Both the position numbers and the translations under genes were made by a program. Below are positions 23,343 through 24,725 of a stretch of 64,000 nucleotides of DNA, piece by piece. Each line of letters starts with the position of its first letter. Position 1 is the first letter of the stretch. The notes under the pieces are model-generated. The model had not been told where the DNA came from. It did not search any database and worked only from the letters and a program-made list of their open reading frames with translations. Source of the DNA: Clostridiaceae bacterium (GTDB lineage Bacteria > Bacillota > Clostridia > Peptostreptococcales > Tindalliaceae); the NCBI GenBank assembly GCA_024635995.1, contig JAGXHW010000036.1, forward strand, positions 1-64,000. The letters are read 5' to 3'.

Positions 23343-23451
23343 CAACAGGAAGATCCTTCAGCTAATTTTGCTGTTGGGAAATTGATACAAACCAATTTAA
23401 ATAGGACGTAGGTCCCTCGACAGAACGCTTATGTACGTGGTATGCTTACAT

Positions 23452-23592
23452 TCATCCGATAATGGCAAACCAGATGAAAATCTGGGACGCAAAGCTACAG
23501 GGCCTTCTTTCACATTGAAGTGGCAGCCAGCTACCGAAGATTACATGTGGGTTATGGTCTTCTGCCTGATCGGTGGGAGGCTTTTTTTGTTT
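23452..23592 (+). ncRNA. c-di-GMP-I (GEMM-I) riboswitch with overlapping terminator
   Basis: The leader of the next gene holds the GEMM-I core. It shows GGCAAACC (23464-23471), a P2 stem CCAGAT/ATCTGG closed by a GAAA tetraloop, then GGGACGCAAAGC, and a P3 stem whose 3' side is GGCAGCCAGCTACCGAA. The base aligned to G20 of the V. cholerae Vc2 aptamer is G, which fits c-di-GMP rather than 3',3'-cGAMP. The 3' strand AGCCAGCTACCG (23525-23536) can also pair with CGGTGGGAGGCT (23571-23582), directly followed by seven T, with GAAGA/TCTTC extending the helix. Aptamer folding and this terminator therefore exclude each other, which predicts an ON switch. Confidence 0.88.
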
Positions 23593-23642
23593 CAAAATCT
23601 TCTCATGTCATTCGGATGAATCAATCATAGAGGAGGAATAAG

Positions 23643-24386
23643 ATGAAACGTAAAAAGAATTATGCAGTGGTAACAGTGGTACTATTATTGGTTATGATGT
23701 TGAGCATTACAGGATTTGCAGAAGACCTTACTGTAGAAGTTATTGATGGCACAGAAGAAGTGACAGAAGAAATCACTGAGGAAGGCGTGACTGCAACCAT
23801 CGTCGTGGATGGTGAAGAGGAAATTGTATTAACGGTTGACGCTGAGGGAAAGATTATCTCTGCCGACTATGCGAAAGACCTGAATGAAGAGGAAGACACA
23901 GAGGAAGATAATCCGCTGGCTGACCTGGTGGACAAAACCTTGTTAGAGGGCCTTGAGGCTCTCAATGACACTGAAGAATCAATGGCTTATTCAGTTACCA
24001 TTTATTCAGATGACAATGAACTGATTGATTGGCTGGAACAATTGCTGGAAGAGAAATTTGGTGAATGGATTGAAATTGATTCCATTAAATTGGTCGATTT
24101 AGACAACCCCAATGCGTTGCGTTTTATGATGGCTCAGGAATTGGGCATCACACCTGGCAAAATGAATTTGCTGGAAAAATTGGGTAAAGGCTATGGAGAA
24201 GATGCACTGATTTACTACGCAGCATGGGCTGAGAAATCGGTTAAAGAAATAATGGCTGCTGTTAAGGAAGAGCGAAAAGGAAGCGAAGAAGTTACCGCTT
24301 CAATCACAGAAGAAACACAGACCGAAAACAGCAACAAGCCTGTGAAAGCCCCCAAAACCAATAATGGCAAGGGTAATAAGAAATAA
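23643..24386 (+). CDS. Secreted acidic protein under c-di-GMP riboswitch control
   Basis: A 247-residue exported protein I cannot place in a named family. Residues 1-24 are a signal peptide (KRKK start, hydrophobic core, TGFA-ED). The mature part is very acidic, with Glu/Asp runs (~35-95) and repeated TEE units. It ends in a Lys/Asn-rich basic tail. A segment near 180-220 (ELGITPGKMNLLEKLG...WAEKSVKEIMAAVKEE) resembles, from memory, a C-terminal motif in clostridial RsgI-like anti-sigma proteins, but no anti-sigma domain is seen. A strong AGAGGAGG site precedes the ATG. Control by c-di-GMP suggests a surface or biofilm role. Confidence 0.85.
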   Translation: MKRKKNYAVVTVVLLLVMMLSITGFAEDLTVEVIDGTEEVTEEITEEGVTATIVVDGEEEIVLTVDAEGKIISADYAKDLNEEEDTEEDNPLADLVDKTLLEGLEALNDTEESMAYSVTIYSDDNELIDWLEQLLEEKFGEWIEIDSIKLVDLDNPNALRFMMAQELGITPGKMNLLEKLGKGYGEDALIYYAAWAEKSVKEIMAAVKEERKGSEEVTASITEETQTENSNKPVKAPKTNNGKGNKK

Positions 24387-24408: not shown

Positions 24409-24449
24409 AAGAGCCTATCATGGAATTGATGATGATAGGCTCTTTTTTT
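24409..24449 (+). terminator. Intrinsic terminator after the riboswitch-controlled gene
   Basis: AGAGCCTATCAT and ATGATAGGCTCT flank a short loop and are followed by seven T. The rest of the 339-bp gap (24387-24725) is AT-rich with a possible TTGCAA-N16-TAAAAT promoter near 24605-24632 and shows no gene. Confidence 0.92.
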
Positions 24450-24725
24450 GTACTGTTGAATATTTTAAGTGTGTTATCCATAGCATAGGGTAATAACAAA
24501 ATGAAGCAAACTGTGTTGAATTATTAGCAGGTACTATATAATTACAAATGTTTGGGAATGTGCTTCCTTATGATATTCCAGTGAAAAGTCTTTATTGAAG
24601 TGATTGCAATGTAAAGACTTCATGATAAAATGGTATTGTAGTGTTGATGAAGGGTATTTATACAACTTAATGACCTATTGCAGTGGATTAAGATAATTCT
24701 TCAACATAGGAGGATGAATATAATT

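Follow-up and report, generated by a model that had tools for sequence, protein, structure and literature searches.

The 64,000-nucleotide stretch of Clostridiaceae DNA analysed here (the window) carries a c-di-GMP-I-type leader ahead of a gene for an exported acidic protein. Three questions follow: which ligand the leader senses, whether the ligand turns the gene on or off, and what kind of protein is controlled. The features of the locus are listed below by coordinates, strand and identity.

23404..23415, no strand assigned: palindrome GGAC-N4-GTCC, upstream of the promoter
23417..23446, +: promoter-like TCGACA-N18-TATGCT with TG before the -10; predicted start at ~23453
23453..23467, +: aptamer 5' strand (P1/J1-2, including G20), complementary to 23563-23575 (in the terminator) and 23607-23619 (after the terminator)
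23454..23539, +: complete c-di-GMP-I (GEMM-I) aptamer, from covariance models; P2 loop GAAA at 23476-23479
23536..23562, +: candidate antiterminator hairpin, GAAGAU (23536-23541) with GUCUUC (23557-23562)
23556..23582, +: intrinsic terminator hairpin GGUCUUCUGCC-UGAUC-GGUGGGAGGCU, without aptamer overlap; U run at 23582-23588
23607..23619, +: post-terminator anti-aptamer element (UGUCAUUCGGAUG), able to pair with the 5' strand of the aptamer over ~13 bp (-16.5 kcal/mol)
23630..23637, +: ribosome-binding site GAGGAGG, predicted to be less accessible with the aptamer imposed
23643..24386, +: open reading frame of the acidic exported protein (247 aa), in which residues 159-212 are, by profile comparison, homologous to the RsgI C-terminal module
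24409..24450, +: gene-end terminator, hairpin at ~24409-24444 (-19.4)

The aptamer and its ligand pocket

Judged by its sequence, the window leader holds a genuine c-di-GMP-I aptamer, and c-di-GMP sensing is predicted. The Infernal search with Rfam RF01051 that the original prediction had proposed scores 72.1 bits at 23454-23538 (+) against a curated cut-off of 35 bits, and cmscan places RF03167 (c-di-GMP-I-GGC) at 23455-23539 with 67.3 bits (E 9.8e-14; cut-off 59); the complete GEMM-I core with its GAAA loop, noted at the outset, is thus recovered by both models. The pocket nucleotides are G23464 (G20), A23491 (A47) and C23534 (C92), in Vc2 position numbers, and this combination indicates an ordinary c-di-GMP pocket.

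The best Rfam label for the aptamer is c-di-GMP-I-GGC, a name that presumably stands for G20/G47/C92, and this favours a sensor of some other ligand, either a GGC variant or a cGAMP sensor. The window is similar overall to RF03167 and exceeds its curated cut-off, but reads GGACGCA where the family consensus is GGACGCG, so that the G of the 'GGC' variant is replaced by A at the A47 position. Nor is position 20 the A of the cGAMP riboswitches (GEMM-Ib): Geobacter aptamers with A20 are cGAMP-selective, and A20G flips their selectivity to c-di-GMP (PMC6456294). We regard a ligand other than c-di-GMP as very improbable.

Of the six GEMM-I aptamers in this genome, four (L003 on contig C5, L004 on C10, L005 on C30 and L006 on C20) carry A20, the state that is cGAMP-selective in Geobacter; those of the window and of C12 (L001) carry G20. 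A single RNA class may serve the organism to sense two cyclic dinucleotides. The A20 aptamer at C10:5697-5772 (-) (L004/L022) has a terminator arm overlapping the aptamer, is predicted to be an ON switch and stands before pilB, pilT and pilC-like type IV pilus genes. The A20 leaders on C20 (L006/L024) and C5 (L003/L021) are almost identical; one stands before the gene for a 1641-aa helicase, judged by eye to be RecQ/UvrD-like, and the other before a helicase-like start that ends after ~49 codons. Downstream of the G20 aptamer on C12 (L001/L020) is the gene for a 791-aa secreted protein with repeats, in the vicinity of capsule/exopolysaccharide-type genes. GGDEF domains are matched 17 times in the genome.

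Terminator, aptamer and the direction of control

The local terminator at 23556-23582 has 11 contiguous bp and a 5-nt loop (-13.8 kcal/mol) and begins 17 nt past the aptamer. The seven T reported originally are present at 23582-23588, and at this same U run a second hairpin can end, formed by 23525-23536 with 23571-23582 (4 bp, a 2x2 mismatch and 6 bp). The original prediction took the latter for the terminator, mutually exclusive with the aptamer. The pairing is possible on paper, at -13.3 kcal/mol alone and -18.9 with inner pairs, and does exclude the aptamer; it is not the best terminator, however, occupying at most 7% of the free ensemble in sampled growing transcripts, and mutual exclusion does not extend to the local hairpin, which lies outside the aptamer.

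When the aptamer pairs are imposed on growing transcripts the local terminator has a probability of 1.0 from 23582 on, compared with 0.2-0.5 in the free ensemble (0.1-0.5 when the comparison with the other leaders is included), by nearest-neighbour energies that leave out tertiary contacts and kinetics; aptamer formation is therefore predicted to favour termination. In free-ensemble transcripts extending to 23575-23578, 23456-23460 is paired with 23569-23573 in 98-99% and 23464-23467 with 23563-23566 in 85%, such that the aptamer 5' strand, G20 included, holds both terminator arms. The candidate antiterminator hairpin has a 5' strand overlapping aptamer P1 and a 3' strand that is the terminator 5' arm. 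An ON switch calls for a folded aptamer that excludes the terminator stem, and in silico the stem forms fully with the aptamer in place; the arrangement found, an aptamer-independent terminator disrupted by alternative pairing of the aptamer strands, is that of an OFF switch. Because the terminator is in every sampled structure with the aptamer, and the aptamer strands pair with its arms without it, an OFF switch is predicted.

Homologs for comparison of the leaders came from protein searches; a scan of the genome collection gave one relative. The leader of L015 (MAG Clostridiaceae S18.Bin088), whose protein matches that of G001 from the same genus, is nearly identical to that of the window and so is not independent evidence. 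At L015, panC and a gene for a GGDEF protein with a degenerate signature (CKNDKF) lie between yjbQ and the riboswitch (427-2741), and both are absent at the corresponding place in the window. The leaders of L028, L032 (these two of one genus) and L040 are diverged, with different platform sequences, and in each the terminator is wholly outside the aptamer; TATACT/TAATAT-like boxes occur at a place similar to that of the window promoter. Imposing the aptamer changes the terminator probability from 0.76 to 0.99 in L028, from 0.74 to 0.85 in L032 and from 1.0 to 1.0 in L040, and the predicted switching is weak in these three because the free ensemble already terminates. The original assignment to the c-di-GMP-I class and to transcription attenuation is supported by these data, whereas its ON direction is not supported, given the effect of the imposed aptamer and the same layout in three divergent leaders.

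The ON reading, in which a c-di-GMP-stabilised aptamer would block the 23525-23536/23571-23582 hairpin and allow read-through, gains from the fact that this pairing is real and that a related aptamer of the same genome, on C10, has such a layout: its terminator arm is the aptamer's own CCGAAG, and the terminator is lost when the aptamer is imposed. In a duplex test the aptamer 3' strand and terminator 3' arm of the C10 leader are complementary at p 0.0025, unlike the four family leaders, in which the same match, needed for an ON switch, is at chance level (combined p 0.92); complementarity of their aptamer 3' strands to the terminator 5' arm and loop is weakly positive and no more than suggestive, with no single leader significant (p 0.07-0.18) and a combined p of 0.04. 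With a shorter-range terminator still forming at the same U run on the folded aptamer, we consider an ON switch unlikely. It is also conceivable, if slightly less so, that a real aptamer sits on a near-constitutive platform, either terminating in both ligand states or dominated by the promoter and palindrome. One U run ends both hairpins, predicted switching is weak in L040 and L032, a palindrome lies upstream in four family leaders, C. difficile CD630_19900 is controlled mainly via its promoter, and B. thuringiensis Bc1 gave no c-di-GMP response in vitro; against this, the window itself is predicted to switch strongly and the leader features recur beyond shuffles.

The OFF reading is extended by a second match to the aptamer 5' strand, downstream of the terminator. 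Its complementarity to 23607-23619 in the window has p 3e-4 against shuffles, with -12.3 (p 0.004-0.017) in L028, p 0.08-0.09 in L032 and p 0.17-0.19 in L040, and 2e-5 to 8e-5 for the four leaders combined. Imposing the aptamer lowers the mean unpaired probability of the GGAGG site from 0.28 to 0.08 in the window, 0.19 to 0.09 in L015, 0.65 to 0.10 in L028, 0.74 to 0.19 in L032 and 0.20 to 0.05 in L040, and the drop exceeds that of post-terminator-shuffled controls in all four leaders tested (p 0.026, 0.013, 0.020 and 0.026; 150 shuffles each). Complementarity and accessibility, in post-terminator tests designed after the sequences had been inspected, together suggest a translational layer acting in the same direction as termination, that is, coherent control of both.

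The best explanation, and in our judgement a probable one, is thus a c-di-GMP-I riboswitch predicted to work as a two-layer OFF switch with an RsgI-type target (see below); from the folding models we infer that the gene is off with c-di-GMP. Without c-di-GMP, aptamer strands 23453-23467 (5') and 23535-23541 (3') would occupy the terminator at 23556-23582 by pairing with its arms and loop, so that polymerase would read through; the 5' strand would then pair with 23607-23619, which would make the ribosome site more accessible. When c-di-GMP is present, the folded aptamer would keep both strands, the terminator would form, and any read-through RNA would have a more occluded ribosome site. Since the folded aptamer is predicted to bring both termination and occlusion, the target gene should be on at low c-di-GMP.

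The class I c-di-GMP riboswitches of C. difficile are uniformly OFF switches as reported (PMC6200980), and the window shares their aptamer architecture, G20/A47/C92 pocket and terminator platform, with repression at high c-di-GMP predicted here. It differs from OFF-type RF01051 members in its target family and its very short P1 at the transcript start, and adds the post-terminator anti-aptamer element and predicted ribosome-site effect. Bc1 of B. thuringiensis likewise has a long platform with proposed effects on transcription and translation, but these are reported as opposed (incoherent; PMC11218506), whereas the window layers are predicted to act in the same direction.

The target gene probably forms a monocistronic unit, because its own terminator hairpin stands 3' of it. 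The GGAC-N4-GTCC palindrome or one-mismatch forms of it precede the predicted start by ~45-60 bp in the window (23404-23415), L015 (2763-2774), L028, L032 and L040, and are possibly an operator; the palindrome is absent upstream of L031 and the Acetoanaerobium gene. Further copies in the window (6392 and 33939) sit inside genes, and a regulon is therefore not claimed.

The target protein and its kinship to RsgI

The product, 247 aa long, begins with what by eye resembles a signal peptide, MKRKKNYAVVTVVLLLVMMLSITGFA-ED, and has an acidic body and a lysine-rich tail; its mature part is 25.8% D+E with a net charge of -37, in agreement with the exported, highly acidic target described originally. 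Searches of Pfam and NCBIfam gave no family, with no match to Pfam RsgI_M and none to RsgI_N at E<=1. A profile of the protein, by comparison, retrieves two groups, full RsgI proteins (with RsgI_N and RsgI_M by Pfam in the two checked) and stand-alone exported proteins, which have in common the segment RF.MAQELGITPGKMNLLEKL...KSVKEIMAAVKEERK. In hhalign the segment matches profile A1 over 54 columns (probability 98.4%, E 6e-15) and profile A2 over 88 columns (probability 98.8%, E 6e-17). These profile alignments make the C-terminal module (A.ELGITPGKMNLLEKL..KSVKEIM) a homolog of the segment that follows the periplasmic domain in the RsgI anti-sigma-I factors (Pfam RsgI_N, RsgI_M), here carried by a stand-alone exported protein, and the earlier statement that the protein could not be assigned is superseded.

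In RsgI the shared segment lies at the end of the periplasmic domain construct for which 8hep and related structures were solved, and what precedes the segment in the window protein can be aligned loosely with the same domain. Unlike RsgI, the window protein has an N-terminal signal peptide in place of the internal membrane helix and cytoplasmic, sigma-binding domain, has a riboswitch in front, and is without the Asn-Pro (DVNPS) autocleavage motif, with IVVDGEEEI in the aligned place. Its strand and helix order resembles that of the RsgI periplasmic structures 8hdj, 8hep, 8t9n and 8u9o in a low-confidence prediction only. The structure prediction proposed earlier yielded AlphaFold models with pLDDT of 43 alone and 40 with L015, and Foldseek with these models found nothing below E 0.1; 8hdj, the periplasmic domain of RsgI2, came up only at E 0.6-1.0 and is not counted as evidence. 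Profiles A1 and A2 of the secreted family, searched against PDB sequences, returned nothing significant. The same genome has one ordinary RsgI-like gene, adjoining a sigma-70-region-2 gene on contig C8.

Recurrence of the riboswitch and target, and implications

A c-di-GMP-I aptamer is directly upstream in six of seven stand-alone loci (window, L015, L028, L031, L032 and L040), a count in which two Acetoanaerobium genomes are taken as one and the L031 gene is decayed; the Acetoanaerobium homologs are stand-alone proteins without a riboswitch. At RsgI-type loci the aptamer was found in 0 of ~26 (1.5 kb flanks examined), and a class-wide profile search returned mostly full RsgI proteins without a riboswitch. 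The association of riboswitches with stand-alone as against RsgI loci has a Fisher p of 6e-6 with relatedness ignored; by genus it is four of five. The genomes of the family have 3-10 such aptamers each, which makes chance adjacency very unlikely. None of the papers searched connects c-di-GMP-I riboswitches with RsgI. L031 (1209-1812) has an intact aptamer (79.7 bits) before a secreted-protein gene decayed by a stop and a frameshift, and no U run was found after this aptamer.

It is tentatively possible, though doubtful at present, that these loci constitute a recurrent Clostridia unit, in which a coherent two-level c-di-GMP OFF switch (termination and ribosome-site occlusion), the aptamer 5' strand being matched by two successive elements (terminator and post-terminator), would control a family of soluble proteins that are related to the outer domain of RsgI but not cleavable. 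We infer a surface or envelope role for the target protein; predicted expression at low c-di-GMP, export, the acidic body and the lysine-rich tail would be consistent with a protein of the cell surface or wall in the non-sessile state. The earlier argument for a matrix component of sessile life depended on the ON direction and, like it, is not supported. As a hypothesis from homology, the protein could be a decoy or partner of RsgI.

The locus joins a known riboswitch class to a target family linked to RsgI and to a possible two-level platform. The predicted sign of control is reversed: in place of a matrix component produced when c-di-GMP is high, the target is a protein produced when c-di-GMP is low. 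The locus also offers a repeated, testable case of a riboswitch with possible effects on termination as well as translation, and places a previously unassigned secreted family beside RsgI, whose outer domain triggers SigI signalling. If the recurrent unit is real, the RsgI-like family could bind the cell-wall or polysaccharide partners of RsgI and so tie c-di-GMP to SigI-type envelope sensing.
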